A DNA stretch of 64,000 nucleotides, taken from Semisulcospira habei. Taxonomy: Eukaryota; Mollusca; Gastropoda; Semisulcospiridae. The stretch lies in the NCBI GenBank assembly GCA_036245525.1, contig BTPG01000004.1, positions 162,622,574-162,686,573 on the forward strand, in the 5' to 3' direction. This document shows, one piece after another, positions 9,184 to 57,617 of this stretch; the stretch's first letter is position 1; each line of letters begins with the position of its first letter. The position numbers were made by a program, and so were the translations under genes. The notes beneath the pieces are model-generated. The model was not told the origin of the DNA and did no database searches. It worked only from the letters and a program-made list of their open reading frames with translations.

Positions 9184-9753
9184 AGTATGAGTCCATTGAA
9201 ACAGTCCAGAACTTTAAGTTTCTTGGCACTACCCTGTCATGTGACCTGAAGTGGGAGGAAAACACTCGCCTTATCGTCCAAAAAGCACAGCAGCGCTTGT
9301 TCTTCCTGCGACGTCTGAAAAGTTTCGGTCTCGATGCCCACATGTTGATGCAATTCTACCGAGCTGTGATTGAGAGCGTGCTCACCTTTTCGATCACGGT
9401 TTGGTATGGTTCCATCACGGCCAAAGAGAAAATCAGACTGAGTAGGGTGGTCAAGACCGCTTCAAAAATCATAGGCAGAGATCTTCCTAGCCTGGACTCA
9501 CTGTACCAGCAGCGTCTCTTACGTAGAGCACGTCTTATCTCCAGTGATTCCACCCACCCCGGCAATGAGCTTTTTCAAATTTTACCATCAGGGCGCAGGT
9601 ACAGGTCCATCAGTACCAGGACCAGCAGATTCCGCAACAGTTTTTTCCCTCTTGCTGTTCACGCTCTCTCTGATCAACCGGACTAATTGGAGAGAGCGCG
9701 AGTGGCGAGTGAGAATGATTGTGTACAGTCAGTTTTTAACTGTATCAGATGTT

Positions 9754-11400: not shown

Positions 11401-12225
11401 CATTGGTTCCAGAGTCCAATTCAGATGTGCGTAGTTCTGCACTCACATGTTAACCCATTGGTTCCAGAGTCCAATTCAGATAGGCGTAGTTCTGCACTCA
11501 CATGTTAACCCATTGGTTCCAGAGTCTATTCAGATGTGCGTAGTTCTGCACTTACATGTTAGCCCATTGGTTCCAGAGTCCAATTCAGATAGGCGTAGTT
11601 CTGCACTCAAATGTTAACCCATTGGTTCCAGAGTCCAATTCAGATAGGCGTAGTTCTGCACTCAAATGTTAACCCATTGGTTCCAGAGTCCAATTCAGAT
11701 AGGCGTAGTTTTGCACTCACATGTTAACCCATTGGTTCCAGAGTCCAATTCAGATAGGCGTAGTTCTGCACTCACATGTTAACCCATTGGTTCCAGTGTC
11801 CAATTCAGATAGGCGTAGTTCTGCACTCGTATGTCAGCCCATTGGTTCCAGTGTTCAATTCAGATAGGCGTAGTTCTGCACTCGTATGTCAGCCCATTGG
11901 TTCCAGTGTCCAATTCAGATAGGCGTAGTTCTGCACTCGTATGTCAGCCCATTGGTTCCAGTGTCCAATTCAGATAGGCGTAGTTCTGCACTCGTATGTC
12001 AGCCCATTGGTTCCAGAGTCAAATTCAGATAGGCGTAGTTCTGCACTCACATGTTAACCCATTGGGTCCAGAGTCCAATTCAGATAGGCGTAGTTCTGCA
12101 CTCACATGTTAACCCATTGGGTCCAGAGTCCAATTCAGATAGGCGTAGTTCTGCACTCACATGTTAACCCATTGGGTTCCAGTGTCCAATTCAGATAGGC
12201 GTAGTTCTGCACTCACATGTTAGCC
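11401..12225. repeat. satellite array, 55-bp unit, about 15 copies
   Basis: Units begin CATTGGTTCCAGAGTCCAAT and contain TCAGATAGGCGTAGTTCTGC. The period is 55 bases with rare 54- or 56-base units. Variants cluster: copies around 11840-12000 share GTGTCC and CTCGTATGTCAG, which suggests local amplification. There are no spacers. Each unit carries (T)TAACCCATTGG, which resembles the MITE terminus TTAACCCATTTAG, and the array stops exactly where a family A MITE begins. Confidence 0.97.
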
Positions 12226-12413: not shown

Positions 12414-13340
12414 TGAAACAGACTGCTATGAAAACTGTACATTGTTGTTATGTGCTAATACATAAGTTAATGTAATACTGTTAATAGAGTTTCTTTGTGT
12501 GTGTGCGTGATTTCTTTGTGTAATACATTTTTTTTGTGTGTGAGAGTGCTTGCACGCCATGCGCGCGAGCGCGAGCGTGTGTGTGTGTGTGTGTGTGTGT
12601 GTCTGCACGCTGACTGACATTTGCGTAAAAGCCGCCCTATGTTAAATGAGACAAAAATAGGCATATACACCACAGAAGTAACAAGAGACAAATCTTCATC
12701 AGTTCCCACGACAGCGATGGGCTCAGGAGGGTTTATGTCTCTTGCAGCTGAGCAGCGTTCGCCTTGCCCTGACAGTTAAGTGGATAACATTGCGATTTGA
12801 AGTTGACATGTATTTTACATGTTGGAGTGTCAAATCGCGCAGTAATGCATACTGTGGGCGTTATCTGCAAACTTTTTCTGTGTCATTTTGAGTGGTGTCG
12901 ACATTTTCAAGCATATTCATTCATGTAACGATTTTTGTGTCTGGACAATGCGGTTACAGTAAAGTCCGTGGATTATGTTTATTAACGGCTTAGAGAGAAA
13001 GTAGCTGTCCCCCGAAACGTTGATGTCTTGTTCTTGATTGTAATTGTCATGATTTTAAAATTAAAGTTACACGTGTCAGTTGTGTTCAGCGTTTTGTTTA
13101 AAAAGGGCACGGATTCGCTTCGCTGTGATGTTTATGTTTGCAATGTGTGGGTGGGTGGGTGGGTCGTAGGCAGCAGGGGATGGGAGGGGGGGGGGCGTAT
13201 TGAGCTTGATCCCTCTGCCCTGCCCCCCCCCCCCTCAACCCCGCACCCCCCAAAAAAAATTAAAATAAAAATAAATAAATAAATAAATAAAATAATAAAA
13301 TAAATAAAATAAATAAAAATAAATAAACAGAGAAAGAGAT
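12414..13340. other. gene-free stretch with simple repeats and a half hairpin B
   Basis: A GC/GT microsatellite lies at about 12560-12602. A single arm of family B (GGGTTTATGTCTCTTGC) lies near 12728. Poly-G, poly-C and an A/T-rich (AAAT)n tract occupy 13183-13325. No gene is seen. Confidence 0.6.
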
Positions 13341-13516
13341 GAACCACACTTGCACATTCATGCTGATACCTTCTTTATTCATTAAAAAGTATGCATTCTA
13401 ACTGCAGGAATTTTTTTTATAAATACACGTATTTAGCTCAGATCGTCGATTACTGACAGAGTCAATGATGCCAAGCGTGCACTGCATCGTGCTGATAATG
13501 ACGCGCTTCCAAATTG

Positions 13517-13744
13517 TCAGTTCACAGGCACATTTTCACCCAGGAACGGTCTGTAGTCAGTGAAGTCTTTCAGCACCATGCTATGCAAGAGTACTTTTGT
13601 GCATGAGTCTCTGACTGTAAAATCTAGCAAGCAGTATTTTCTGTCTCTAATAAAATGCTGGGTAAAATGAAAGAGACCCGACTTCCTAACAAGTGCCCAT
13701 GTCATGCTAACTGACAATATGTTAATTGTAGTGAACATCTCCAA
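13517..13744 (-). CDS. possible terminal exon of an unidentified host gene
   Basis: The 75-residue open end (…DYRPFLGENVPVN stop) reads like normal coding sequence. A candidate splice acceptor (ATTGTCAG) lies inside it, so the exon may start near 13712 rather than at the methionine. An AATAAA polyadenylation signal lies on the same strand at 13379-13374, about 140 bases past the stop. I do not recognise the protein. It may also be a chance frame. No upstream exon was located. Confidence 0.28.
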   Translation of the reverse strand: MEMFTTINILSVSMTWALVRKSGLFHFTQHFIRDRKYCLLDFTVRDSCTKVLLHSMVLKDFTDYRPFLGENVPVN

Positions 13745-13754
13745 ATAGGCAAGT

Positions 13755-14045
13755 CAGAACCTTTTCAGTCTGTGGTAACGAATCTTGGTGTTTTTCTTGA
13801 TTCAGATTTGACCATGGGCAAGCAGGTCAGTTTTGTTTGTCGTACGGCGTACCTTGAACTCCGCCGTCTTAGCATTATTAGTAGACCTTTTTTGACCGAT
13901 AAGACTGCAGCTCCAGCTGGCATGTTCTAACATCTTGACCCGCCTAGACTACTGCAATTCTATTCTAGCAGGTATACCCAGTGAACAAACACCCCACCTT
14001 CAGCGCATTCAAAATCATACAGCAATGGGGTACAATGGTTCCTTT
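13755..14045 (+). pseudogene. LINE reverse transcriptase fragment (CR1/jockey type)
   Basis: The conceptual translation gives LGVFLDSDLTMGKQVSF, AYLELRRLSIISRPF and, after a frame change, LDYCNS with an LQRIQN block, the post-palm region of CR1/jockey-like RTs. Stops and a frameshift make it a dead fragment. It ends where the AT-rich flank of the virus-like cassette begins. Confidence 0.65.
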
Positions 14046-14658
14046 GACCTCCCTCAAGCCTAGAGAAATAAGAAAGTACAATACAAGAGATTTTTTGACG
14101 ACGTCATCTTTTTACGTTTTTTGATAACAAAACACTCGTGTGACGTCACCTTTCATTTTTCCCCGGATTCTAACTATTGTCTCTGACAAAACTTAATCAC
14201 ACATTGTTAAAAAAAAAAAATGATGACCATTTCCAGTCGAGAATAGTACTTTCCAAAGACTTCGAATTACCCATTGTCTTAATTAACCCCAATAATTAAC
14301 TAATTACGGTCGTTAACGTCCACACTGTCGTTTCTCTCAAATCAAACCAAAATCCTGTCAGTGCACTCTAAAATAAACTAATGACTTTTACACACACCCC
14401 TGTCAGAGTCGATTTCTGAGAAACACGATTTTCTCAAGTAAAACTTTATACGTTACTAGCAAGTTACAACTAACTTTTAAGAACCTGCAGAGGTAACCTT
14501 TAAGTTACTTATCATAAGAACTTATTAATTACTTATCATAAGAACTTATTAATTACTTACTGTAAGTTCTTATAAGTTCTTACAACAACTTGACTTAAGT
14601 CACAACTTACTCGGTCAGATTTGTCAAGATACAAGGACAATAAAAAAACTTTTTTTTC
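14046..14658. other. AT-rich flank of the virus-like cassette with short tandem repeats
   Basis: There is no large frame. A 24-base unit (TTACTTATCATAAGAACTTA plus TTAA) occurs twice at about 14508-14556 and is followed by an inverted form (TAAGTTCTTATAAG). Two ACGTCA/GACGTC motifs lie at 14097-14105 and 14141-14148. It is plausible as the terminal or regulatory region of the element that carries the four ORFs, but no matching opposite terminus was found. Confidence 0.4.
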
Positions 14659-14751
14659 TCAGTAATACTCTGGCGGTGGTGCTGATGGGGTTAAATAATC
14701 AGGCACAAGTGGTGTAAGTGGCATGTCATTTTTCTGTGAAGTGTATGTCAT
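14659..14751 (-). CDS. 30-residue ORF with overlapping PSAP and PPxY late-domain motifs
   Basis: The ATG lies 26 bases downstream of the stop of the 228-residue ORF on the same strand, and the frame ends at 14659. The last nine residues are PSAPPPEYY. PSAP fits the P(T/S)AP motif that recruits TSG101/ESCRT-I, and PPEY fits the PPxY motif that binds NEDD4-family WW domains. In known enveloped viruses and in adenovirus protein VI such motifs serve budding or intracellular transport. The frame is also open upstream of this ATG, overlapping the end of the previous ORF, so a longer product through frameshifting cannot be excluded. The role is an inference from motifs in a very short ORF. Chance occurrence is possible, but the position, strand and spacing match the neighbouring ORFs. 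Confidence 0.45.
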   Translation of the reverse strand: MTYTSQKNDMPLTPLVPDYLTPSAPPPEYY

Positions 14752-14777
14752 TAATAAACGATTACCAAATCTGATCT

Positions 14778-15464
14778 TTATTTGTTTAAAAGATTGTGTA
14801 GTTTTTCTGTGGTTTCCTGTACCCCTATCTTTTTTCCCTCTGCTAAAAAACTGGCCTTCAGTTCTTCAACATTTACGGGAGATTGACTACGCATTTTATT
14901 TTGTATTTCTGACTTCTGTTTTTTGTAATTATTTAAATCATCCTGGACCCGCTTAAATTCTTCATCATCAATAAAATTATCATTCAATGCCTTACTGATA
15001 ATAAGTTTCATACTGCTCAGCTTTGCACCAGCAAGCGTACTCAATGCTTCATGTTTCTGTAATTTCGTGTGAAACCTCTTGTTCAAGGCTTCCAAACCAA
15101 AGCAAGCCAGGCATGTAGCAACGCTAACACCCTCAACTGCTATTCCAGCCAAACTCCCAATTCCTGTGGCGAACAGAACGATACCCCCTACAGAACATGA
15201 AGCTGAAACTGCACCAATAGCCATAGAAGTGTTTTGTACAGAATTGAAAACGGTCTTATACCGTCTTTTGCACCGTGAATATTTCGCCTCCTCACTCTCC
15301 AAATATTTCAAAGCTTCTGTAATATTATTTAATCTGAATGCATCTGCCTGTAATGTTTTATCTGAAGCAATTGGCATATGTGGATCAGGCGCAAGCGTTG
15401 TTTTAGTCATCACATTTGTTTCAGTCGGATCAAGCGTTGGTAGTTGCGGATAGAAGTTTACCAT
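14778..15464 (-). CDS. virus-like cassette ORF 3: 228-residue protein with a central hydrophobic segment
   Basis: The ATG at 15464 is used; the frame is open 15 bases further upstream, but only to a TTG. Residues about 80-123 are rich in Gly, Ala, Ser and Val and long enough for one or two membrane passes or an amphipathic insertion. They are followed by a Lys/Glu-rich region (about 130-205) likely to form long helices or a coiled coil. The N-terminal 35 residues are Pro/Thr-rich. The start lies 29 bases after the stop of the 291-residue ORF. The domain pattern resembles a widespread class of uncharacterised invertebrate proteins that I associate with virus-like mobile elements; that link is from memory and unverified. 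A membrane-active minor virion protein is one possibility. The frame has no stops, so the insertion is either recent or under selection. Confidence 0.6.
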   Translation of the reverse strand: MVNFYPQLPTLDPTETNVMTKTTLAPDPHMPIASDKTLQADAFRLNNITEALKYLESEEAKYSRCKRRYKTVFNSVQNTSMAIGAVSASCSVGGIVLFATGIGSLAGIAVEGVSVATCLACFGLEALNKRFHTKLQKHEALSTLAGAKLSSMKLIISKALNDNFIDDEEFKRVQDDLNNYKKQKSEIQNKMRSQSPVNVEELKASFLAEGKKIGVQETTEKLHNLLNK

Positions 15465-15493
15465 TTTTTTTATTGACAAATATTTTTTTTTAT

Positions 15494-16369
15494 TTAATCA
15501 GCAATTACATTTTGCAACTCTTCAAAAGTATACAATTTGCTGGCATAATAAAATGCAACAAGATCAATGTGTTCAAGGTTTATGTAAGTTAGACGAACAA
15601 AAGTTGTTTTGTCGACCACCACCTTGACAGCTGGAACACTGCTCGAAACATTAATAACATCATTATTTTTTGTAATAGCAATAAAGACCTTTGATGATTC
15701 TGTTACTGTTTCGTCCCATGTAAGTTTAATTCCTTGTGCAATTTGAGCCTCTTTAGCAGTAGCAACAGATTTCATGATAATTTCAAATACTATTGCCGCT
15801 TCTCTAGCCACGACTAAGCTTGCTGGCATAAACACAACAGAAGTATCTGATCTACCCTTTCTAGTTGTAAGAAGATACCGCCGTCTCTCATAATTTTCAA
15901 CTTTCAGTTTTTCTCTGCTATTGTTGTCTGGGGCAAAGCTTGGAACAAGACTTACAATAAGCGGCCCAGAATTAACAACCTTCCTAAACACTAAGGCACC
16001 TTCGTCATCAGTGTATACATAAGGACTAATAAATTCCAACTTTATGTCCCAGTCAATTGTGGGTGGTGGAACAGGCACAGGTGAAACCACCCACTTATTT
16101 CCCACATGTATTAAGTTGTAGGGCGAATTATTTACAGGTGGAGTAGGTACAGTAACATCACGTAGCTGACCAAGTTTAGGAATCTGTTTTTCACCGTCTT
16201 TCATGTCAACAATTACTTTCCTCTTGTACATGCCATTTGAATCAAGTTCAAAACCATATATTTCTCCAACATCCCCCTCCTTCTCAAAATCCTGTACGTC
16301 TGCCAAATCTTTCAATTCTGTTACTGGACATGCAACTGGTATGATTCTCAACTTTGGACCACCACTCAT
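15494..16369 (-). CDS. virus-like cassette ORF 2: 291-residue protein of unknown function
   Basis: The ATG at 16369 lies 21 bases after the stop of the 236-residue ORF and is preceded on its own strand by a TTTATAAAAA stretch. The protein has no signal peptide or membrane segment. It opens with a short basic stretch (GPKLRIIPV), has a Pro-rich linker around residues 74-104 (PTPP, PVPVPPP) and a C-terminal half of alternating hydrophobic residues that suggests beta strands, with a YERRRYLLTTRKGR basic patch near 160. I do not recognise a family. Its position between two other compact ORFs and the lack of introns point to a viral or transposon origin; a structural protein is plausible but unproven. 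Confidence 0.6.
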   Translation of the reverse strand: MSGGPKLRIIPVACPVTELKDLADVQDFEKEGDVGEIYGFELDSNGMYKRKVIVDMKDGEKQIPKLGQLRDVTVPTPPVNNSPYNLIHVGNKWVVSPVPVPPPTIDWDIKLEFISPYVYTDDEGALVFRKVVNSGPLIVSLVPSFAPDNNSREKLKVENYERRRYLLTTRKGRSDTSVVFMPASLVVAREAAIVFEIIMKSVATAKEAQIAQGIKLTWDETVTESSKVFIAITKNNDVINVSSSVPAVKVVVDKTTFVRLTYINLEHIDLVAFYYASKLYTFEELQNVIAD

Positions 16370-16390
16370 TTTTTATAAACAAAAATAAAA

Positions 16391-17101
16391 TTATTTAATT
16401 TCCAACACAACACTAAAATCATGCATAAGAACTGGTTTGTCATCCTGATTAGTTACAGATATACTCAGTGACTCAAAGAAACTAGAACCTAATTTCTTAA
16501 ACTGCAAATTAGGAAATCTAACAACTACACTTTCACAATACGGAGCAGTTCCAGTTGGTAAGCATCTCAACAAAGTTGAAGGCTTTCCATTGTGAACATT
16601 CTCAGATGTGTTCAGTTCTTTCAAATAAACATTTAGCACTCTGTGTACTGACAAATTGACAGGGCGTTTTCCAGTTATTTTAAGTTTTTTTGTCTTCATT
16701 GTTATAATACCAAACTTAAATTCACCTAAATCATCTAATCTCCACCAATCTTCGTCAATATAAAATCCAAGTAAATATGCAAATCTATCTGAGATCTTTA
16801 GCCAATCTTGTGTCGGAGATTCTAATGTAACAAGTAGGTTAGCTGGATTTAAAGTTGCTTTAATTTTAAAATTACTTTGAAACCATTCAGCTATAGTACA
16901 AAAGTCATAATAACCAGGCGGTAAAGCTTCAGTCTTACCACCAAAAATTACTTTATTATATATATCATCTTCTATATTAAACCATTTTACTGTATAAAAC
17001 ATTTCATGGATAGCTGCAGCCTTGCTACCATCCCGATTATCAATCCCATTAGTTAACCACACTGGTTTGCTTGTGTTAAGATTTGTTAAGGTAATAAACA
17101 T
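16391..17101 (-). CDS. virus-like cassette ORF 1: 236-residue, probably beta-rich capsid-type protein
   Basis: The ATG at 17101 is followed by a beta-rich sequence with an LPPGYY turn (residues 60-65), a DRFAYLLGF block (105-113) and an acidic-aromatic stretch (about 114-125). The spacing of a PPG-Y turn followed about 45 residues later by LLGF matches a pattern I recall from uncharacterised proteins of invertebrate Polinton-like or related virus-like elements, where they lie next to capsid genes; the match could not be tested. There is no signal peptide. It is the first of four minus-strand ORFs separated by 21, 29 and 26 bases, an arrangement unlike host genes here, which have long introns. 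About 55 bases beyond its ATG the sequence changes to a LINE fragment, so anything further upstream in the original element is lost or displaced. Confidence 0.6.
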   Translation of the reverse strand: MFITLTNLNTSKPVWLTNGIDNRDGSKAAAIHEMFYTVKWFNIEDDIYNKVIFGGKTEALPPGYYDFCTIAEWFQSNFKIKATLNPANLLVTLESPTQDWLKISDRFAYLLGFYIDEDWWRLDDLGEFKFGIITMKTKKLKITGKRPVNLSVHRVLNVYLKELNTSENVHNGKPSTLLRCLPTGTAPYCESVVVRFPNLQFKKLGSSFFESLSISVTNQDDKPVLMHDFSVVLEIK

Positions 17102-17156
17102 TTTTATTATCTCATATAAAAAAGGATGGAATTTAAATCACCAACCATTTATGAAC

Positions 17157-17905
17157 CGACGGTACTATCGACAAGGAAATCGCAGCTCGCATCAGCAAAG
17201 CCAGCCAAGCCCTGGGTCATCTGCGCACTTGTGTGTTGAATAACAACAACGTCAAGCTCTCCACCAAGATCAAAGTCTACAAGGCAGTAGTCCTCCTCAG
17301 CCTCCTCTATGGCTGTGAGTCATGGACGCTGTACAGAAAGCACCTCAAACAGCTTGAACGTTTCCACATGAGATCCCTGCGCTCACTCATGGGCATCAAA
17401 TGGCAAGACAAGGTGACAAACCTGGAAGTCCTGGATAATGCTGGCTCAGTGAGTGTTGAAGCCTTGATCTTAAAGACACAACTTCACTGGACAGGTATGG
17501 ATACGCATGGATGATTCTCACATGCCACGCCAACTCCTGTATGGTGCACTCTCAAAAGGCCACAGGAAGCAAGGACGGCCAAAGAAACGCTTCAAAGACT
17601 GCATAAAAGACAGCCTCAAGTACCGCGTCTTCCTGGTAAAGTAACTTGAAGCACAAGTGAAAGACAGATCTGGCTGGCATGCTAGGAAAGCCTGCACGCT
17701 CTTTGAACACAATCAGCGCAAACGGATCACCAGTGCCAGAGCTCGCAGAAAGACAGCGTTGACTCTCCCCACAGCTACGTTCCAGTGCCCCCATTGCCCT
17801 TGCAGGTGTGGCTCCAGGATTGGCTTGGCCAGCCACACCCGCACCCACACCCACAAATAGAAGTCATGCACAATGACGACATCGTCGGTTTTCGATGGTC
17901 TACCC
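17157..17905 (+). pseudogene. 5'-truncated LINE, RT C-terminal region with zinc finger
   Basis: The translation gives NNNNVKLSTKIKVYKAVVL, LYGCESWTLYRKHLK and LRSLMGIKWQDKV, then after a small gap MPRQLLYGALSKG and finally FQCPHCPCRCGSRIG followed by HTRTH, a C2H2-type finger that ends many LINE proteins of this group. It is probably related to the LINE at the window start, whose lost 3' half would look like this. One frame break lies near 17495-17515 and one stop near 17642. It lies in the opposite direction to the virus-like cassette and marks that cassette's right edge. Confidence 0.75.
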
Positions 17906-18440
17906 ATTATGCCTTCTAGTTGTGAAATACTTCTTAGCTGAGTGTGTACATACTCTCAAAATTTCTTTCCCATACACACTTATGAATGGAGAACAGACAG
18001 CAGCAGACATGTGATATCTCTGCACTAGTAAAACTGACGAGATGTCAGCAAGCATTTCTTACGAAAGCGATAACCTGAGAAAAAGACTAAGAAAACACAC
18101 CTGCTGGCAACTGCTGTCGTTATCTTTGATTTAATTACAAGCAGAATTTACTCAATAACATATACCATTGTCTGCATAATCAGGCGAAATAGCCGCACTG
18201 AGTCACCAGACAGTCCGGTGCACAATCGTCTTTCAGTGTACACTGGGTAGTCTCAGGTAAGCCCAAATCAGCCGCAAAGTGAAGGACTTGAGGCAAAGGT
18301 AAAGTTTCGTTTTGGAATGGGAACATAAATTATATCAAGCCAAACTTTGCTTAATATTCTGCCACCAAGTGATGGATGTGATTACTCATCCCTAAACAAA
18401 ATGTCCTTGGCTAACACCTCGGGCATTTTGATTACATTGG
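17906..18440. other. gene-free stretch
   Basis: No recognised gene or repeat. It could include displaced DNA of the virus-like element, but no frame supports this. Confidence 0.45.
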
Positions 18441-19339
18441 CTGATTACAATACAATACAATACAATCATACTTTATTAATCCCTCATGGGGAAATTCACT
18501 GTCTGCCCATACAACACATGGCAACATCAGTCACTCATTGAAATAATTAAATAACCCTAACTCTCAGTTAAAGAGATGAACTGTAACAGGCGTGCTGTTA
18601 CCTTTGTAACACTCTTGGCATTGGAAACACGTATGGTTTATGCCCCCTGTGCTTCTGGTGTCAGCAGTGTTGCAGTGAACTACTGAATGGGCTAGTACTA
18701 AAGAATGTTGACAGACACTACTGATATTACTGTTGAAGAGGGTAACAGCCTGAGGGGCAAAAGAGTTGGCATAATGTGATGTACTACTTTTGGGTACTGT
18801 TCAATACATCTGCTGTCAAATTCATATCTAAGTGGATGTGTTTTGCCATCAAGAATGTCAGCCAGTTTGTTCATAATACGTCTGTTGTATAGTGTGTCCA
18901 AAGTATCCTGTGCCCTACCAATCACCCCGCCCCCTTTCCAGATTACTTTGTTAAGACAATCTTGATCTCTTTTACATAAATTTCTACCCCAGCACGTCAG
19001 TCCAAAAGTTAGAACGCTAACAATGCTGGAGCAGTAAAATATCTGTAAAAGCTGAGTGCTTACATGAAATGATCTGAGCTTTCTCAAACAGTAAAGATGG
19101 GTATGCGCTTTTTTCACAATAGCATCTGTGTTTTGTTTCCAGTTGAGTGTATTGTCAAAAAGAACACCTAAATACTTGTAGGACTCTACATGCTCAACTT
19201 CTGTTCCCTTGATTGCAACAGGATTGGGATGATGTTTATTTTTCCTGAAATCTGTGACCATTTCTTTTGTTTTGCCAACATGTAATTCAAGATAGTTTCT
19301 ATCGCACCACTCTACAAAGTCGTCGATAGTGTCTGTCGT

Positions 19340-41931: not shown

Positions 41932-43062
41932 CTACGGCGCCTGCTGCGCTGGGAGGGAGTGCTGTGCCACCGTGAGGTCCCCCATCAAGGCGAGGTTGTC
42001 TCGCTGTCCCGCCAGATCCCGAAGGTAGAAATGAGCGAAGGTAGATTCTGCTCGCCAGCCCACCGCGGCCACGATGTCCTTGACAGCGCAGTTCCGATCG
42101 AATGCAACGCTCGTGGCCATGGCGTGTACTTCGTGTGCGCGGATCTTCAGTCTCTGCGCTACACGTGGGGAGAGATCCATGTATGCAGATCGTATTACCC
42201 AGCGCAGCCAGGAGGAGATCGTCTGGGCTGTGATATCAGTCTTGCCCTGGCGTATTGGCAGGAAGAGGCGGGAGCGCCCTCTACGGGTAACTTTGGTACG
42301 GCGCAGGTAAATGCGTAGGGCACGCACGGGATCCTGTTGCCGAGTCTCCGGAGAGCAGTCAGGCCCTCCCAGGGGCCGCAAGGTGATGATCTGTGGGGCA
42401 GTTAGAGGCGACCTTGTCTTGGCAATAAATATTGGGGTCCGTTAAGAGCTGCACGGAGCGATCTGCCCTGAACTGGAGGCAGTCTGGGCGGGTAGAAAGA
42501 GCGTGTAGCTCGCTAACTCTGGACGCGGTGGCCAAGGCTAGAAGGAAGCAGGTCTTGCGTGTCACATCCGCCAGAGGGGCGAGAGCGAGTGGCTCGAAGC
42601 GGGATGAATTCAGCCACGTCAGGACCCAAGGTAGGTCCCAGCGAGGAACGAGAGAATGCTGAGTTGGACGTTGGAGGCTGAAGTTGGACATGAGGTCGGA
42701 GAGGTCCTTACAGGCGCCGGGGTCTGGAAGGCCGAGATGGTGGTAAGTGTCGGCGACCATGGATAAGTATCCCCTGATGGTGATGGGAGCCAAACCTTGG
42801 ACCTCGAAGAGCCAGAGGAGAAAGTCCGCGAGCTGGGGGTTAGTCAATCCGGTGGGTAAGAGGCGACGGGCGTCGCACCAGGAACACAACACGCGCCACT
42901 TCCCTTCATAAACACGCCGGGTGGACGGCTTGCGGGCTGCAGCGATTGCCTCCACTGCTGCACAAGAGAAGCCTCGAGCGGTGAGGGCGCGCTGCACAAC
43001 CTCCAGGCGTGAAGAGACAGGCGTTCTGGACAAGGGTGGAAGAGAGCCTGCCTGGGCTGCTT
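41932..43062 (-). pseudogene. DIRS tyrosine recombinase, frameshifted
   Basis: The N-terminal core-binding part (about 43030-42600) has RKPSTRRVYEGKWRVLCSWC and FLLWLFEVQGLAPITIRGYL. The catalytic part has ATASRVSELHAL with the first catalytic Arg. After a frameshift near 42395 the second part reads IRAHEVHAMATSVAF and VGWRAESTFAHFYLRDL, where the terminal Tyr lies. The H-x-x-R motif reads HEVH, so the second catalytic Arg is replaced by His, a single CGC to CAC change. Recombinases of this type join the circular DNA intermediate to the target without a DDE integrase. The frameshift and the lost Arg imply inactivity. Confidence 0.85.
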
Positions 43063-45224
43063 GAGCATAGAACGGGGCGTGGGAAGGCGCAGGGGAGGAG
43101 AGGTGGCGAGGTTGAGTAGGTCGGTGGTCCAGGACCGGGACCAAGCCAGCGGGGCGACCAGAAGCAGGACTGCGTTGCACTCTCGAAGTTTGTGGAGGAC
43201 CTTGGGAATGAGGACTGTCGGAGGGTACGCGTAAGCGATGAGGCCGTCCCAAGGAATCGAGAGGGCGTCGACTGCCCAGGCCAGCGGGTCTGGAATCGGG
43301 GAGACGAAGAGGGGAAGCTGGTGGTTCCACCTCGTAGCAAACAGGTCGATTAAGGGAGTCTCCCAACGGGCGCAGATCATCTTGAAGATATCTGGGCGCA
43401 ACGTCCATTCTGTGTGGAGCAACTGGCCGCGGCGAGAGAGAGAGTCCGCCAACACATTCAAGTGGCCAGGAATGTGTCGTGCCAGGAGAGTAATGTCGCG
43501 TTCCTCGGCCCAGCGCATCAAACGGAAGAGGAGCATACAGAGGTCGGGAGAGCGGGTGCCCCCCTGCCTCTGGATGTAGGCCACCACCGTCGAGTTGTCG
43601 GAGAGGACGAGAAGCCGCTGGTTCCTGAGCTGGCTCTCCCAAACGAAGAGGGCATGCCAGACTGCTTGCAGCTCTAACCAATTGCTGTGTTTGTCCGCAA
43701 ACTCCGGGGGCCAGAGGCCGGACGCCGAGGCGAATTGAGGAAGCAGGTGGGCTCCCCACCCCGAGAGGCTCGCGTCGACACACAGGGAGAGGTGCGGGGG
43801 GGGGGGGGGGGGGGGGGGGAGAACAAAGGGACTCCCGAAGCCAACCAAGCCGTGTCGGTCCAGCGTAGAAGATGAGGGCGAACCAGGGGGGATACCGGGA
43901 CCAGGGTGGTGAGGTCGCCGGAAGAGGGTCTCCAGAGAAGCAGGAGGTGCAGCTGAAGAGGGCGGGCGTAGAGGCGACCCAGGGGGAGAAGCTCCGCCGC
44001 TGCGTTGATCAGTCCGAGGAGTTGAAGCCAAACTCTGGCGGGAGCTGCTTCCTGCTGAGCTAGCTGGTTGGCGAGGGCGGACAACTTCCGAATCCGGGGA
44101 TCCGGGAGGCGAACAACGTTGAGATCGGTGGCAAAATCCATCCCGAGATGTATGAAGCGGCGCGAGGGCGTGAGATCTGACTTCCTGACGTTGAGGAGGA
44201 ACCCCAGTCGCGACAGCAGACGCATCAGTGTATCCCTGTCCGCTTCCAAGACGGACTCGACGCGGTTCCTCAGGAAGAGATCGTCGAGATAGTTGGACAT
44301 AGGGCTGAGAGACGACTGCCGTGCCTTGGCCATTACTGCATCCATCAAGCGGGTGAAGACCCAGGGGCTGAGGTTGAGGCCGAAGGGGAGGGCTCGAAAC
44401 TGGTAAACGGTTCCATCGAAGGTGAAGCGCAGATACCTCTGGGCGGCCGGATGTATGGGTACATGTAGGTAAGCGTCGGAGAGATCTAGGCTGACGGCGT
44501 AATCCATGGGTCGCACCGAGGTACGAAGGGCTCGGGCCGTCTCCATGTGGAAGGAAGGAGCCACGATGAAGCGATTCAGAGCTGAGAGGTCGATCACTGG
44601 ACGCCACTTGCCGCCGGGCTTGGGGACGACGAAAAGTCGGCTGTAATATCCCAGCGAGTCTGTGCGGCGCACAACCTCTGTGGCGTCCTTCCTCAAGAGA
44701 GAGTCGACTTCCCCCCGTAGGGCGCACTCCTTGAGCGGGTCTGCGGGGATCTCGGTCCACAGCGGAGTAGCGCGCAGAGGAGGAGGGGAACGAAAGGAGA
44801 TCCTTAGGCCGAAGGAAACAGTGTCTAAAATCCACGGGTCGTCTGGAATCAGTAATCGCCACTCCTCGCTGAAGAGGGCAAGCCTGCCGCCGACTGGAGG
44901 ACCCGAGACGGCCGGCGGAGGCGGAGGAGGGGCGGAGTCACTGAGCCCGCCCGCGCCCAGGGCGACGGGCGGGACAGGGCCAAGCGGGGGCGGGGGCGCT
45001 AGCTTGGCCGGGGCGACCGAAGGCGGGGCGACGGCGACGCAGGGACTGCAGCTGGGCTGTCGAAGTCGGGGCGACGGGTCTGGTGGTCCGCAGGGAGCGA
45101 CCCACGGCCTTGCGGGCTGACTTAAAGCGCCGAGGAACAGACTTGGGAGGCCACCTGTCCGAATTGGAATCCTTGACGGCTTGCCAGGTGTCACCAAAGA
45201 GAAGGGGTCCCCCGAGGGGGGCAC
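42844..45224 (-). pseudogene. DIRS reverse transcriptase and RNase H, frameshifted at a poly-C run
   Basis: The RT part (45224 to about 43820) has VVPKPGGKWRPVIDLSALN, VSLDLSDAYLHVPIHP (palm A), FRALPFGLNLSPWVFTRLMD and the catalytic SNYLDDLF. A 23-base G run (43797-43819, proline codons on this strand) shifts the frame. RNase H continues in the next frame with LCVDASLSGWGAHLL, WLELQAVWHAL, LVLSDNSTVVAYI and HIPGHLNVLADSLSR, so D, E and D catalytic residues are present, followed by a conserved DLFATRWNHQLPLFVSP block. The poly-C length may be a sequencing artefact; if so, the polyprotein could be intact. Confidence 0.88.
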
Positions 45225-47034
45225 GACGCAGCTGAGTCTTCAGGTCGGCAGGCATTCCCCGGCAGGCCTGCAGGACAGCGTCGCGGCGGAGTAAGTCACA
45301 ATTGGAGGCTGCAGCCATAGCGTTGACAGAAGAGTGATACGCGGCGCGGTTGGCCGCTTCAGCCAGGACGAGAAGATCGCCAAGAAGGGGGGTCAGGGAA
45401 GGGTGCCACGAATCTTCCACGCGACGGAGGAAGGCTTGCGTAAGGAGCTCCATGAAGCCGGCGCAGGCCAAGGAATTCCTGACAAGCGAAGCAGTCTTGT
45501 CCAAACCAGCGGGGAGCGCGCGCCTAAGGGCAGAGGCCCCACCCGCCTGCACCACGGCGGCTGGGTCCACCGGAGGGAGAGGGCAGAGGAAGGCCTGGGA
45601 ATGGCCGGCGTACCACTGCTGGCGGAAGTAAATGTCGAGGTCAGGAGGCCATCTGTGGTCCGAGAAGAAATTGCTGTCCCGCGAGTCAGACAACAGGTGG
45701 GCCGAAAAAACATCCCGAAGCTCACGAAAGCCGGGGGGCTGAGGGAGGGTCTTGAACTTCTTCACCTGTCTACGCGCGTCGACGAAGGCAGAAGGCTTCC
45801 TCTTCAGGGGGGGGGATGGAGGGCAGTCCTCTGCCGGAAGCGTGGCGGAGATGAGGCGGGCGACCTCGTCGAGAGCCAGAAGAGCCTCTGTGCGGGAGGA
45901 GGCCGGTAACCCGTGGGCTGTCGACGCATCCGAAGGAGAGAGCGGAGAAGGGGAGCGGCTGAGACCTCCTAGGAGAACCGAGATCGAATCATCAGGGAGA
46001 AGACTCAACGAATCGTCGTCCACGACGCAGGGAGCCGTCGAAGAGTGACGGCGACCGGGACTCCGAGAGCGAGCAGCTCGACGAGGACGAGGGGAGCCAT
46101 AAGGCGCCGAAGCACGCGGGGGAGAACGACGTCCGCGATGGCGACGCGACGAACTAGAGGAGCGGGAACGGCGGCGGCGGCGACGAGACGAGCGACTGCC
46201 AGCTGGAGACCGCGATCCACGGGAACGAGGAGGAAGGAAAGAGGCTGGGCGAGGGGAAGGGGAACAGAAGGGACGAGGCAGACGGCAGGGAACGTGGGAC
46301 GAACGCCGCGAAGAGGTAGAGCGCGAGGGCCCATGGTCCTGATGACGAGGAGAATCACGATCTTTACAACGCTCACGCGAAGGAGCGCGAGAGTGGTGGT
46401 CAGACTTCGAGCGCAAGGAGGAACTGGACACAGGTAGTGGTGTGGTGAGTGTGCGAGAATGTCTCCGCGAGCCGGACTCTGTGGCGAGGCGGGTTCGCAG
46501 CGGCCGAGGAGGATCCAAGGCCTTCCTAGGAGACGAGTGGGGACCGGTTGACCATGGACGGCGCGAGGCACGTCTCTCCGAACTGACCTCTGTCTCGAGA
46601 TGGGTTCTCTGCCTGGCGTAAGGCTTGGTCCAAGCGCGTTCCCTCCTGGGAACCAGCGCCTCGAACTCCCGACTCCGCACACTACCTTGCTGTGTCCGCC
46701 GTGGAGATCTTTCCAGACTGGGGCCATCGGGGGCAAGTGCGGCCGGGGCGCCGGAGATGACAGCCGGCACTTCCTCAGGTCCTGCCACAGGCACAGGTGT
46801 CGGGCGTTCACGTCGGTAGAAGCTCCAAAGTTGGGACCAGCGGAGCTCCGGCCAGACGGCGCAAACGTCACATGAACGCTCAGATGTACAGCCGACACAC
46901 GGCAGGCAGACCTTGTGCGAATCCGAGGGCCACTGGAAACCTCCACACTGAGTGCAGGTCATCAGGAGGGCACTGCAACACACAAAAAAACCCTGCCGGT
47001 ACGTGGTCGAGACCAACAGGGCTCGTCCTACCAA
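44938..47034 (-). CDS. DIRS gag-like ORF 1
   Basis: The 698-codon frame starts with a Cys-rich segment (CTQCGGFQWPSDSHKVCLPC, then C-x-x-x-x-x-C pairs) that also opens the copies at 28.1 and 63.8 kb. A long Arg/Ser/Pro-rich stretch follows (residues about 80-360), then a more ordered C-terminal half with FREVFSAHLLSD-like and DLDIYFRQQWYAGHSQAFL blocks. It overlaps the start of the RT frame by about 290 bases. The role is presumably RNA binding and particle formation, by position. The exact start is uncertain because the frame is open slightly upstream. Confidence 0.75.
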   Translation of the reverse strand: MVGRALLVSTTYRQGFFVCCSALLMTCTQCGGFQWPSDSHKVCLPCVGCTSERSCDVCAVWPELRWSQLWSFYRRERPTPVPVAGPEEVPAVISGAPAALAPDGPSLERSPRRTQQGSVRSREFEALVPRRERAWTKPYARQRTHLETEVSSERRASRRPWSTGPHSSPRKALDPPRPLRTRLATESGSRRHSRTLTTPLPVSSSSLRSKSDHHSRAPSRERCKDRDSPRHQDHGPSRSTSSRRSSHVPCRLPRPFCSPSPRPASFLPPRSRGSRSPAGSRSSRRRRRRSRSSSSSRRHRGRRSPPRASAPYGSPRPRRAARSRSPGRRHSSTAPCVVDDDSLSLLPDDSISVLLGGLSRSPSPLSPSDASTAHGLPASSRTEALLALDEVARLISATLPAEDCPPSPPLKRKPSAFVDARRQVKKFKTLPQPPGFRELRDVFSAHLLSDSRDSNFFSDHRWPPDLDIYFRQQWYAGHSQAFLCPLPPVDPAAVVQAGGASALRRALPAGLDKTASLVRNSLACAGFMELLTQAFLRRVEDSWHPSLTPLLGDLLVLAEAANRAAYHSSVNAMAAASNCDLLRRDAVLQACRGMPADLKTQLRRAPLGGPLLFGDTWQAVKDSNSDRWPPKSVPRRFKSARKAVGRSLRTTRPVAPTSTAQLQSLRRRRPAFGRPGQASAPAPAWPCPARRPGRGRAQ

Positions 47035-52733: not shown

Positions 52734-54457
52734 TCAAATCTTATTAAAAATATGGCACTCTCTCAGAAAACTGAAGATCTTGTCCGGGGGCACATCCCGG
52801 AACAAAACCTTCAAGGAGTCTGCCATGAAATGTTTATACCTTGTGTCGATTAGATCAGCACAAGACAACAAAAAGTGTTGAACAGAGTACTGCTCGTCAC
52901 AGGCATAACACCATGGACGCTCCTCCTGTTTAAGTAAATAAGAGTGCGTAACATACGTGTGGCCGATGTGGAGCCGAGCCAGGACAGTCTCCTCACGGCG
53001 GCTGCCGCAGCGATAAGGTAGACCGTCGGACAACTTAGGAAGGGCTTCATGCAGCTTGTTAGCTTCCTCTTTGTCCCACTCGGACTGCCACTCACGGGCT
53101 ATGTACGCACTAGCCACATGTCTAAAATCACTATAAACAGTCTGCGTGTCAGGGACAGGGTCATTGCGGGCATCGTTGGCAGCAGAATCTGCGATCCTGT
53201 TGCCTTCGATGCCCACATGCCCTGGCACCCAAATAAAAATGATATCATAATATTCCTTCATCAAGTCCGCGTGGAGCTCTCTGATCTGCACCAGCAGTGG
53301 GTGGTCATTTCCCGTGCCCTGAAGGGCCTGCAGGGCAGAAAGAGAGTCAGACAGAATCAGGAAGTTCCTTTCTCTAGATCGATAAGCATGCCTGAGTGCC
53401 AGCAGAACCGCCTGCAGTTCCGCACTAAATACAGATGAGTGGTCTGGGAGGCGGTGCTTAAATGGGCGTCTAGGATGGCGAGAGGACACTGCGGCCGCAG
53501 CCACTCTCCCATCCTCAGACTTTGACCCATCGGTATAGATGCGACAATAGCCAGGAAAAATTGAAAGCAGTTCATTGAGGCTCTGTTGGTATATGGCTGG
53601 TGGAGTAGAGTCTTTCTTGTGGGCAGTCAAGTCCAGCAAGATGTCAGGAACTGGTAAGAGCCAAGGTGGAGTGATGTGTTGCAGGGATTCCGAAACTCTG
53701 TCCAGGTCCAATCCGGCCGCCTGCAGATGAGGTCGGACACGGAAAGAAAGTGGACGGACAGCTCCCGGATGGGTATCGTAAATCTCTGCAAACGATGGTT
53801 TAAAAACACAATCATAGGCAGGATTGTCTGGATGGGCCTTCAGTTTCAGAACGTAGCTGAGCATGAGGCGGATGCGGCGGAGCTTGAGAGAAGGCTCCCC
53901 TGCCTCGGCATACAGACTAGGAACTGGAGACGTCCTGAAGGCCCCAAGACATATCCGCAGACCCTGATGGTGAATTGTGCTCAGACGCTGTAGCACAGAC
54001 TTGGGAGCTGAGCCATACACCACAGAGCCGTAATCCAGTTTGGACCGAACAAGGGCCCGGTACAGACGAAGTAAGACAGTACGGTCCGCACCCCAGTCAG
54101 TACGACCGACGACACGAAGAATGTCGAGAGCCTTCTGACAAGAGGTTCTAAGGTAATTAATATGGTTGCAGAAGGTAAGTCTTTTGTCAAAAATGACCCC
54201 CAGAAACTTTGCCTCCTCGGCCACCTTAATTGGCACTCCAGCAATGCTCAGGCTAGGTTCTGGAAAAAATTTCGTCTGGTTAGTAAAATGCACACAAACA
54301 GTCTTGGAGGGTGAGAACTTGAATCCATTGAGAGACACCCACCGCTGGATGCGATCAACGCACAGCTGCAAGCGCCTCTCAAGGGACGCAAGTCCTCGAC
54401 CACGTGCGCACAAAGCAAAGTCGTCAACAAACAAAGAGCATTCAGAATCATCCTTGA
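52734..54457 (-). CDS. I-type LINE: RT palm C-terminal part, thumb and RNase H
   Basis: The frame reads directly from the left target duplication of the RTE-like insertion. It begins with the catalytic CSLFVDDFALCARG, then KFSPSKTVCVHFTNQ, KFLGVIFDKRLTF and YGSAPKSVLQRL. RNase H follows with IYTDGSKSEDGRVAAAAVSS, FSAELQAVLLALRHAY, LILSDSLSALQAL and WVPGHVGIEGNRIADSAAND, so the catalytic D, E, D and D are present. The C-terminal tail has LARLHIGHTYVTHSYLL and a CYACDEQYSVQHFLLSC zinc-type motif usual for this group. The open frame of about 570 codons has no stops. Confidence 0.9.
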
Positions 54458-54465
54458 CGGCCTTT

Positions 54466-55252
54466 CATCATCATCATCATCAGTCCCTTGCCCGAACTGG
54501 GCGTTGGGGGGACTGAAAGGCAGCAGCAACAGACAGTGCTCTCCACTGAGTTCTATTTTGGGCGGTGGCAAGCAAGTCTGGCATCTCGAGTTCGGTCCAT
54601 TCTTTTATGTTTGCGACCCAACTCTTTCTCTGACGACCTCGCCGACGACTTCCTTCGAGAGTGCCTTGGAGGATAGTCTTGGACAAGGTGTTGTGTCGGG
54701 TCACGTGGCCAAACCAAGCAAGCTTGCGCCGTTTCACGGTTGCCAGAAGGGGTTCATGTGGGCCCACCAGGGAAGTGACGATGCTCCGTACATATTCGTT
54801 GGTCTTGTGCTCGCGGTACGAGATGCGGAGCAACTTCCTCAGGCACTTGTTCTCAAAGGCCTGGATTTTCTTTTCTGAGTCTGCAAGCAGTGTCCAAGTC
54901 TCACAGCCGTAGAGTAGAATAGACACTACGAGGGACTTGTAAAGCCTGTACTTGATGGTGAAGCTGATGGAGTTACTTCGCCATATCCTGTCCAGCCTGG
55001 CCATTGCGGATGTTGCTGTACCTATCCTGATACGGATCTCTGCTATGCAACTACCGTCTTTGGACAGGGTGGCTCCCAAGTACTTGAAGCTATTGACCTC
55101 TTCTAGCTTCTGGCCGTTCATGTGAATGTTGCTGCTGCTGTCGCTTGTGGTGTTGATCATCACTTTGCTTTTATCCGTACTGATCTCCATGCCATAAGAC
55201 CCTGCGCTACTTGAAAGTTTGTCTGTCAGGTTTTGGAGCTCACTATTGCTGC
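54466..55252 (-). mobile_element. 5'-truncated RTE-like LINE copy inside the I-type LINE
   Basis: CGGCCTTT on both sides (54458-54465 and 55253-55260) marks the target duplication. Excising the insert and one duplication rejoins the RT frame at the codons just before FVDD. The 3' tail is an ATG repeat. The sequence is nearly identical to 38060-38820 but begins about 20 bases earlier. It fused with the host LINE frame to give an artificial 447-codon frame. Confidence 0.95.
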
Positions 55253-57612
55253 CGGCCTTTACAATGTTATTAATTTTAATACTAAATAAAACAGGAGATA
55301 GAATGCTGCCCTGTGGGACACCCATCTCCTGTTCAAAGGAGTCGGAGAGGGTGGAGCCCACACGGACATGGAACGACCGGTTAGTCAAAAAATTGTGAAT
55401 AAAAACGGGCAGGTGCCCTTTAAAACCCATGTCCAACAAGTCAGACATTATGCCATACTTCCAGGTAGTGTCATACGCCTTCTCAAGATCGAAGAAAATT
55501 GCATAGACATGCTGCTTGTTGACAAAAGAATCTCGAATAAATGATTCAAAGCGGACTAAATGGTCAGTTGTACCACAGAAGCGCCGGAAACCGCACTGGA
55601 GGTCTGTGATGAGACCCTGTGACTCAAGATGCCACACCAGGCGGGCGCTGACCAGGCGCTCCATAGTTTTACATAAACATGATGTCAAAGCGATAGGCCG
55701 GTAGTTGCCCGGGTCGGAAGGATCCCTTACCCGGCTTGGGGATCGGTACAACCACAGCCTGGCGCCAAGACGGCGGAAAATGACCAGTTCTCCAGATATG
55801 GTTAAAGGCCTTGAGAAGTACAAGGAGTGACCTCTCAGGCAGATGCATTAGGAATTGATAGTGGACGGTATCTAGGCCAGCAGCAGAGTCATTACATTTC
55901 TGCAAAGCTTGCTGCAATTCTGATAATGTAAACGGGACATTATAGTCTTCTGAGTTATCGGACTTAAAATCACAAATACGAGACTCTCGCTTCTCCTTCT
56001 CTCTCTGGAAGAATTGATTGTACATTGCTTAACGTCCCGACAGCAACAAGGCTTTCTCAGGACGTGCCTGCACTGCTTGTGAAAAAAACTAAACAGAACA
56101 TTGAATGTATGTCGCCAGCCGGTCAAATACATTAAATAAACCTAACACATGGGGCCTAAATAAAGCTAAGACCATTTAGCAACACATATCCAATATCAAG
56201 AGCTACAGGCAGTGCAGACAGTAGGGAGAGTTTTAAAAAGGCAAATACAGGTGAATGGACAAAGGGTAGACAGAAACACATGCCCCAGAATAGAGAGAAA
56301 AACCCACCCTGTGGGGCTGACCAGGGTGACCCTGGGAACTAAAAAATACCTAACCCCACCCAAGTCCCCCAGGGCAGACCCGGGTGGGGGTCTCTCTGGA
56401 AGAAAGGTGAATAATGCTCCGTTGAAGAATTATGGGCAATGGTGGAGGCAAGCAAATTGGCCACAGCTTTTTTATCTGTAACCAAACTGGCACCATCTCT
56501 AAGATGGCCAACAGAAGCCGAGCCACCTCTGGCCCTAATTCTCCGAACAGCCTTCCATACTTTCTGGGACGGAGTCCGAGAAGTTAAAGATGAGACGAAG
56601 CGTCTCCAGGAAGCACGGCGTTCACGTTTAAAAATGTAACGGGCTTTCGCCCTCTGTCTTTTAAAGGTTAAAATATTCACTTGCGACGGATTATGGAAAG
56701 CACGTCGCTGAGCAGATTTGCGCGCTATTTGGGCTTTGCGGCACTCTTCGTTGAACCATGGTACTCTCGGCTTTCGAGGGACTGATGCGGAAGTTTTAGG
56801 GATGGTTTCACCCGCTACGTCCAACAAAATAGTAGTAAAAGAAGAAATAGATTCTTCAGATGACATGACCACCTCCTCTGTAATACGAGACTGACAGAGG
56901 GAGGCGAACAGAGGCCAGTTAGCTTTCTTAAGATTCCAGCGCCCCACCGGCGGATCCTCCCCACAGCTGACCGATGACAGGACTACTGGGAAGTGGTCAC
57001 TACTACACAGGTCATCGTGAACCTTCCAGTCAAAGTCCAGCATGAAAGAAGGATCACACACAGTGAGGTCTAGAACAGAACTAGATCCTGAACCTGGGTT
57101 AGAGTATGTAGGTGAACCATCGTTAAAGACACATAGGTTAAGTTGAGAAAAAACATCTTCTAACATCTGACCTCTGCCATCATAGTGGTCACTACCCCAA
57201 AGGTGAGCGTGACAGTTAAAATCCCCCATGAGAATAAAGGGAGGGGGCAGTTGATCACCTAAATTAAAAAAATCATTACTACAGACCCACAGGGATGGTG
57301 GCAGGTAAATACTGCATATGGTTATGGTCTTCTTCAAGGTAACCCGAGCTGCGACAGCCTGAAGACAGGTGTCGATGCTAAAGGGGCTACATAAAATTTG
57401 GCTACTAATGAGAAGAGCCACTCCACCCGAGCGCCTCTCTGAATCAGAGCCTTTATGTATAACGTTAAAACCATTAACCAGGGTCAGAAGTCTTCAGGTA
57501 AGTCTCCTGAAGAGATATTACTGAGGGGTTATAGCACTTGACTAAAAGACGTAATTCCTCAAAGTTAGCTTGAAAACCACGACAATTCCACTGAAGCAGA
57601 GAGTCCATGATT
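55253..57612 (-). pseudogene. I-type LINE: endonuclease and RT N-terminal part
   Basis: Endonuclease residues from about 57610 include SLLQWNCRGFQANFEELRLL, VISLQETYLK, then after a frameshift near 57480 ERRSGGVALLISS, FILMGDFNCHAHLWGS and DDLCSSDHFPVVLSS with the SDH motif. The connector has PWFNEECRKAQIARKSAQR. RT has LQQALQKCNDSAAGLDTVHY, FPPSWRQAVVVPIPKPGKG, a frameshift near 55730, GNYRPIALTSCLCKTMERLV, LQCGFRRFCGTTDHLVRFES, FFDLEKAYDTTWKYG (palm A) and MGVPQGSILSPVLFS. The 377-bp insert lies between the connector and RT. At least two frameshifts make it inactive. Confidence 0.88.
56014..56390 (-). mobile_element. 377-bp retroelement insert (SINE or LINE 3' end) in the I-type LINE
   Basis: TCTCTCTGGAAGAA occurs on both sides (56000-56013 and 56391-56404). 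The minus-strand 3' end reads GGGACGTTAAGCAATGTACA then ATCAA. A similar end occurs near 33417-33440. There is no frame of note, so it is a SINE or the untranslated end of another LINE. Confidence 0.9.
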
Positions 57613-57617
57613 ATGTC

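Follow-up and report, generated by a model that had tools for sequence, protein, structure and literature searches.

In a 64,000-nt stretch of the Semisulcospira habei genome (contig BTPG01000004.1, positions 162,622,574 to 162,686,573; in the following called the window), we delineated a compact cassette of four open reading frames (ORFs) on the minus strand, read from position 17101 to 14659 (Table 1). All four frames are open and follow each other with AT-rich spacers of 21, 29 and 26 nt. Their GC content is 32–43%, and 23–33% at third codon positions (GC3). The original prediction for this locus had described the same four ORFs, and its sizes, strand, spacers, AT-rich gaps and open frames all proved exact on recheck.

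Table 1 Features of the four-ORF cassette and its surroundings, in window coordinates
Feature	Position	Strand	Details
ORF1	16391..17101	-	236 aa
ORF2	15494..16369	-	291 aa
ORF3	14778..15464	-	228 aa counted from ATG; 233 aa from an upstream TTG (start given by the ORF lister)
YPQL, ALIX-type late motif	15441..15452	-	ORF3 tail, residues 5–8
ORF3 hydrophobic Gly/Ala-rich segment	15081..15239	-	residues 76–128
Candidate ORF4	14659..14751	-	30 aa, C-terminal PSAPPPEYY; basis: sequence
PSAP (TSG101-type) and adjoining PPEY (Nedd4-type)	14665..14688	-	in ORF4
Right flank, LINE-like coding remnant	17149..17430	+	tblastn hits at four further sites within the window (E 8e-13 to 2e-9); right limit of the cassette
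Left flank, LINE-like coding remnant	13787..13897	+	single hit within the window (51% over 37 aa, E 4e-4)
24-base tandem repeat	14500..14559	.	2.5 copies, 97% matches; AT-rich stretch 3′ of ORF4

We searched a genome and metagenome protein set once with each of ORFs 1–3 and obtained the relatives P0001–P0010, with a query coverage of 79–100%. ORF1 has three relatives (60, 42 and 27% identity, 100% of the query covered, E-values from 4.9e-76 to 3.4e-12), ORF2 has two (59 and 38%, 6.6e-100 to 1.7e-47) and ORF3 has five (63, 62, 61, 38 and 44%, 1.4e-80 to 4.1e-31). Because these relatives lie at 27–63% identity, each with an E-value below 1e-11, ORFs 1–3 are, judged by their conservation, real genes. 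None of the relatives, which come from the sources jgi, ena and lgn, is named beyond “hypothetical protein” or carries a Pfam domain. The longest contig listed has 1837 bases for both P0004 (ORF2-like) and P0008 (ORF3-like), which would fit their lying on one contig as neighbours, as in the cassette. Outside of the cassette, the window contained no further relative of ORFs 1–4 or of P0001–P0010 (best E 0.15). Likewise, no relatives were found in scans of IMG/VR, in prokaryote genome contigs searched with the ORF3 or ORF1 alignments (A3 and A1, respectively) or in a phage collection searched by tblastn with ORF1, ORF2 and ORF3.

ORF3 has an N-terminal tail that varies between relatives, a hydrophobic segment rich in Gly and Ala, and a C-terminal part that is charged. 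In the hydrophobic segment, 79% of the residues are G, A, S, C, V, I or L and two are charged, and in the 100 residues that follow, 33% are charged. These composition counts bear out the earlier description of a hydrophobic Gly/Ala-rich segment followed by a charged part, which according to crude propensities is mostly helical. The best 19-residue mean hydropathy is 2.02, compared to 1.98–2.15 for the best segments of the five relatives. Some membrane-active capsid core proteins possess holin-like hydrophobic domains in the scheme given by Buck and others (PMC11071296). ORF3 can be regarded as a candidate membrane-active or matrix-like virion protein.

In the tail of ORF3, we detected a short motif, YPx[LI], that is present in the window protein and in all five relatives (YPQL, YPPL, YPQI, YPQL, YPTL and YPAI). 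The tail otherwise varies freely: only 3 of its 53 columns in the A3 alignment are invariant (Met1, Tyr and Pro), versus 50 of 190 columns in the body. Between the four proteins of the window clade and P0009/P0010, tail identity apart from Met1 and YP amounts to between 1/27 and 6/26, versus 69–77 of 185–186 positions in the body. By its sequence, the motif fits an ALIX-type late motif. A PSAP motif lies in the same tail of P0009 and P0010, the two most distant relatives, whereas in the window a PSAP directly followed by PPEY is found in the candidate ORF4. Shuffled ORF3 tails contained YPx[LI] in 1.1–3.3% of cases per tail, and among the 662 ATG-initiated ORFs of the window with at least 20 aa, three, including ORF3, have it within the first 13 residues; PSAP and PPEY occur together in only one, namely ORF4, and in 0.14% of ORF4 shuffles, but none of these figures are independent probabilities, because the tests followed the noticing of the motifs and the six ORF3 proteins are related.

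P(T/S)AP motifs bind TSG101, YPXnL motifs bind ALIX and PPxY motifs recruit Nedd4-type ligases, according to the account in PMC8402826. With YPxL in ORF3 and PSAP plus PPEY in ORF4, all three late-motif classes that recruit the endosomal sorting complex required for transport (ESCRT) are found in the cassette. Late motifs of the P(T/S)AP, PPxY or YPXnL type are present here as motifs; those of ORF3 and ORF4 had not been noticed in the original prediction.

The LPPGYY and LLGF sequences reported earlier for ORF1 are both present, and the A1 alignment of four sequences has 43 invariant columns. Secondary structure was assigned by crude sequence propensities, which also took the hydrophobic segment of ORF3 for strand, and yielded 39% strand and 13% helix for ORF1, and 40% strand and 25% helix for ORF2 (aligned with its relatives in A2). 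Strand calls on hydrophobic segments are a familiar weakness of propensity methods. No relation between ORF1 and ORF2 was detectable by hhalign (probability 0.2%). From its size, beta content and a general likeness, we infer that ORF1 could be a single-jelly-roll vertex (penton-type) protein, and the beta-rich ORF2 is a candidate for a second shell or surface protein. ORF1 showed no sequence match to penton proteins and is beta-rich by the crude propensities.

We searched Pfam with all 14 proteins (ORFs 1–4 and P0001–P0010), PHROGs with ten and NCBIfam with six of them, and also PDB sequences, and found no convincing family for the cassette proteins. All family matches with a printed cut-off fall below it, and no family recurs between members among ORF1, ORF2 and their relatives. 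The sole recurrent family was the RTX N-terminal domain (Pfam), matched by three of the six ORF3 proteins with a best E-value of 0.044, probably due to the Gly/Ala-rich hydrophobic composition; it would fit a membrane-active segment in ORF3 but is too weak to use. Other matches were judged to be noise: THOC7 (Pfam, E 0.0042) and DUF697 (Pfam, E 0.026), each in a single protein, NCBIfam PRK04405 (E 0.0013, with 17.9 bits against a cut-off of 339), the NCBIfam nucleosidase PRK05584 (E 0.004), and, with P0009, PHROG 25388 (“virion structural protein”, E 0.017) and PHROG 21036 (E 0.01). A flavivirus capsid match in one member of A3 (Pfam, E 0.0074) was considered a chance match. The same applies to NEDD4-binding protein 2, matched among PDB sequences by the A1 query over a single 54-residue stretch (E 0.0036), because the single-sequence search with ORF1 did not return it. 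The best E-values among PDB sequences were 0.37 for A2 and 0.08 for A3.

Remnants resembling coding sequences of long interspersed nuclear elements (LINEs) flank the cassette on both sides, from which we conclude that it is an integrated fragment. The label LINE is our reading of similar ORFs elsewhere in the window and not a family match. Only 47 bases separate the start of ORF1 from the LINE-like sequence on the right, and because that sequence begins at 17149, the upstream neighbours of ORF1 are missing from the cassette. None of three flank pieces yielded a transposon domain in Pfam: one gave UL40 at 0.09, one gave nothing and one gave ALKBH8_N at 8.4e-9. The ALKBH8_N match belongs to a 187-aa ORF at 18698–19261 on the minus strand, which is similar to 9195–9560 (E 3e-23) and reads like a LINE remnant. 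As to the terminal inverted repeats of Polintons/Mavericks, just two inverted-repeat pairs within 13000–18500 lie around the cassette (I11 and I15; 18 and 17 nt, 83 and 82%), both of low complexity; the absence of longer ones is expected, because the cassette would be a truncated fragment. The 24-base tandem repeat 3′ of ORF4 is followed by a 10-base repeat, TAAGTTCTTA, and together they span 14500–14582, possibly representing an element end or a regulatory repeat.

To the age of this copy, a simulation of neutral decay gives some indication. With one indel per ten substitutions, all four ORFs remained open in 5.7% of the runs at 1% divergence and in 0/600 at 2%, while without indels the values were 38.7 and 18.5%. 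These values suggest that the copy is young, or else that selection maintains it. An alternative is that these are host genes or domesticated ones that play no viral role, and the four open frames together with the indel simulation could be taken in its favour. However, the indel-free simulation is far more permissive, and a recent insertion accounts for the open ORFs equally well; genes that lack introns, are separated by short spacers and lie between LINE-like remnants also speak against a host origin, which we consider very improbable.

Taken together, a virus-like origin explains these observations best, because compact, intron-free genes on one strand, LINE-like flanks and unnamed relatives without Pfam domains coincide with two beta-rich proteins beside a protein that has a hydrophobic segment and late motifs. 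By our judgement, which was not computed, such an origin is likely, kinship with Polinton-type elements has about even odds, and recruitment of ESCRT or of ligases by the cassette proteins has even odds at best. The original prediction had proposed a probable viral or virus-like transposon origin, as a structural-gene fragment of a Polinton/adintovirus-type element or an unclassified relative, and had left the assignment open. The compact one-strand genes, the LINE-like flanks and the late motifs agree with its first part, but in the absence of a family match, the assignment to Polintons or adintoviruses is neither shown nor excluded.

As the best explanation of the whole, to which we assign a probability of roughly 0.5, we suggest a structural module that recruits ESCRT and stems from a DNA virus or a virus-like transposon. 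The cassette would be a piece of the structural-gene module of such a eukaryotic virus or (Polinton-type) transposon, integrated in the host genome and truncated upstream of ORF1 by the LINE-like sequence. ORF1 and ORF2, both beta-rich, would be proteins of the shell, possibly with ORF1 as the single-jelly-roll vertex protein, and ORF3 would be a membrane-inserting, matrix-like or adenovirus-protein-VI-like virion protein. The YPxL in the ORF3 tail and the PSAP/PPxY of ORF4 would recruit ALIX, TSG101 and Nedd4-type ligases, and either the ESCRT machinery would act on the particle at budding or a ligase would act on it at entry. The folds, the virion role, the binding partners and the step of action are all putative. 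Both mechanisms stand, because the PPxY of adenovirus protein VI, which recruits Nedd4 ligases, works in entry as described in PMC2841620; by analogy, YPxL plus PSAP would favour budding over entry.

Several observations weigh against this explanation, in addition to the interdependence of the motif figures and the crudeness of the propensities mentioned above. None of the databases searched yielded a convincing match to a viral family, and no double-jelly-roll capsid protein, packaging ATPase, protease, PolB or integrase was recognised in the cassette. No cassette ORF exceeds 291 aa or matches a double-jelly-roll major capsid protein in sequence, although that gene may have been in the lost part of the element. 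PSAP is missing from four of the six ORF3 proteins (window, P0006, P0007 and P0008). A move of PSAP from the ORF3 tail to ORF4 is conjecture, ORF4 being without known relatives in protein searches that covered ORFs 1–3. Matches to YPx(1-3)[LI] are also present in P0001, P0002 and P0004, where they do not lie at the N-terminus, and the PPGY of ORF1 is not conserved among its three relatives. Finally, the late motifs are no proof of an envelope, because nonenveloped viruses carry them as well, with reoviruses and the adenovirus penton and protein VI as examples given in PMC2841620.

Some of these points would equally suit a virus-like cassette in which the motifs are incidental and no ESCRT is recruited. 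Short motifs arise easily, ORF4 is a mere 30 aa long, and YPx[LI]-like sequences are found elsewhere in three other relatives and near the start of other ORFs in the window. On the other hand, Tyr-Pro is the only conserved pair in the freely varying ORF3 tail, retained in six of six sequences, and three motif classes meet in a single cassette. We regard incidental motifs as a possibility to be taken seriously, if a minor one. This and the other alternatives are not mutually exclusive, either with the best explanation or among themselves, and their probabilities do not sum to one.

The proposed ESCRT-recruiting module was compared with known systems. The capsid genes of Polintons have led to the proposal that these elements are viruses (PMC4028283). 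Polintons/Mavericks and adintoviruses (“meldviruses”) are eukaryotic virus-like elements whose virion proteins include a vertex protein and small ones that are in some cases membrane-active, as outlined in PMC4028283 and PMC11071296, and would resemble the cassette if ORF1 is a penton. In contrast to them, the cassette has no recognised hallmark gene and no sequence match to a family in the libraries searched. Polintons/Mavericks are marked by a protein-primed PolB and a retrovirus-like integrase, neither of which was recognised in the cassette up to its right-hand limit. According to PMC11071296, what defines an adintovirus is a recognisable hexon together with a PolB that carries an OTU-like domain, and neither was recognised in the cassette. 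An ordinary Polinton or adintovirus fragment, with ORF1 as penton (PX), ORF3 as a minor virion core protein and motifs that act at entry, is nevertheless conceivable. The penton gene of Polintons adjoins the major capsid gene or, more commonly, lies one gene off (PMC4028283), and entry is the step at which the PPxY of adenovirus protein VI acts, with a PPxY described for the adenovirus penton, too (PMC2841620), and a PPGY present in ORF1. Against it, no PolB, integrase, ATPase, protease or double-jelly-roll gene was recognised in the cassette, and its presumed penton lacks a penton match and has relatives that do not retain the PPGY; furthermore, YPxL and PSAP, which PMC8402826 ties to budding, stand beside PPxY. 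We consider this alternative rather unlikely. Adenovirus protein VI itself is an internal capsid protein with a PPxY according to PMC2841620, and the cassette likewise has a PPxY. However, there is no sequence match between them, and in the cassette the PPxY is located on a separate 30-aa ORF and joined by two more motif classes.

The late domains found in retroviral Gag and in filovirus VP40 belong to the same three motif classes (PMC8402826). The Gag protein of murine leukaemia virus (MLV) uses all of them (PSAP, LYPAL and PPPY), and in Ebola VP40, P(T/S)AP and PPxY overlap (PMC8402826), an arrangement that the PSAP-PPEY of ORF4 resembles. In the cassette, however, the motifs are divided between two small proteins that lie next to beta-rich ORFs, with no Pfam match to Gag or VP40. 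Since retroviral Gag and the matrix proteins of enveloped RNA viruses typically bear P(T/S)AP, PPxY and YPXnL (PMC8402826), we also considered whether the cassette could be a fragment of an enveloped element resembling a retrovirus or an RNA virus. Pfam returned no Gag, protease, reverse transcriptase or RNA-dependent RNA polymerase match for the cassette ORFs, and separate ORFs with short spacers are generally unlike a gag-pol layout, so that this origin appears improbable, if marginally less so than host genes.

In a more specific version of the ESCRT-recruiting module, which we consider unlikely, the cassette would supply the virion proteins for DNA viruses or virus-like transposons that form an unclassified family and probably belong to animals. 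Their particles would bud by means of ESCRT with all three classical late-motif classes, one pair of them on a dedicated 30-residue microprotein. If true, this would represent an enveloped or membrane-released Polinton-like element. In the open-licence literature, we found no report of late domains or ESCRT motifs in Polinton/Maverick-like elements and no account of the route by which Polinton-like particles exit from cells. If such an element carries a conserved set of ESCRT-recruiting motifs, its egress could be tested directly using peptides and individual proteins, and a link would emerge between virus-like transposons and the way in which retroviruses and filoviruses leave the cell.

We also looked for expression signals in and around the cassette. 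AATAAA or ATTAAA hexamers are located on the minus strand at 16399, 15498–15494 and 14782, at or beside the stop codons of ORFs 1–3, as well as at 17108, just 5′ of ORF1, and a TATAAA lies at 16377 on the same strand, just 5′ of ORF2. Hexamers near the ORF ends would fit one transcript per gene, and we do not use them as evidence. A scan for bacterial-type promoters and terminators yielded 11 and 1 sites, respectively, compared to 10.5 and 1.7 in shuffled sequences, and Rfam gave no match at the gathering threshold over 13500–18500.

Elsewhere in the window, there are further putative repetitive elements. Large GC-rich ORFs of 149, 474, 672, 516 and 698 aa at 41932–47034 on the minus strand read like a tyrosine-recombinase (DIRS-like) retrotransposon, and ORFs at 52734–58502 on the same strand resemble a LINE that comprises a zinc-knuckle ORF, an endonuclease, a reverse transcriptase and an RNase H, both by reading alone. 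At 11886–12212, short ORFs recur on both strands every 55 bases, apparently reflecting a 55-base tandem array.

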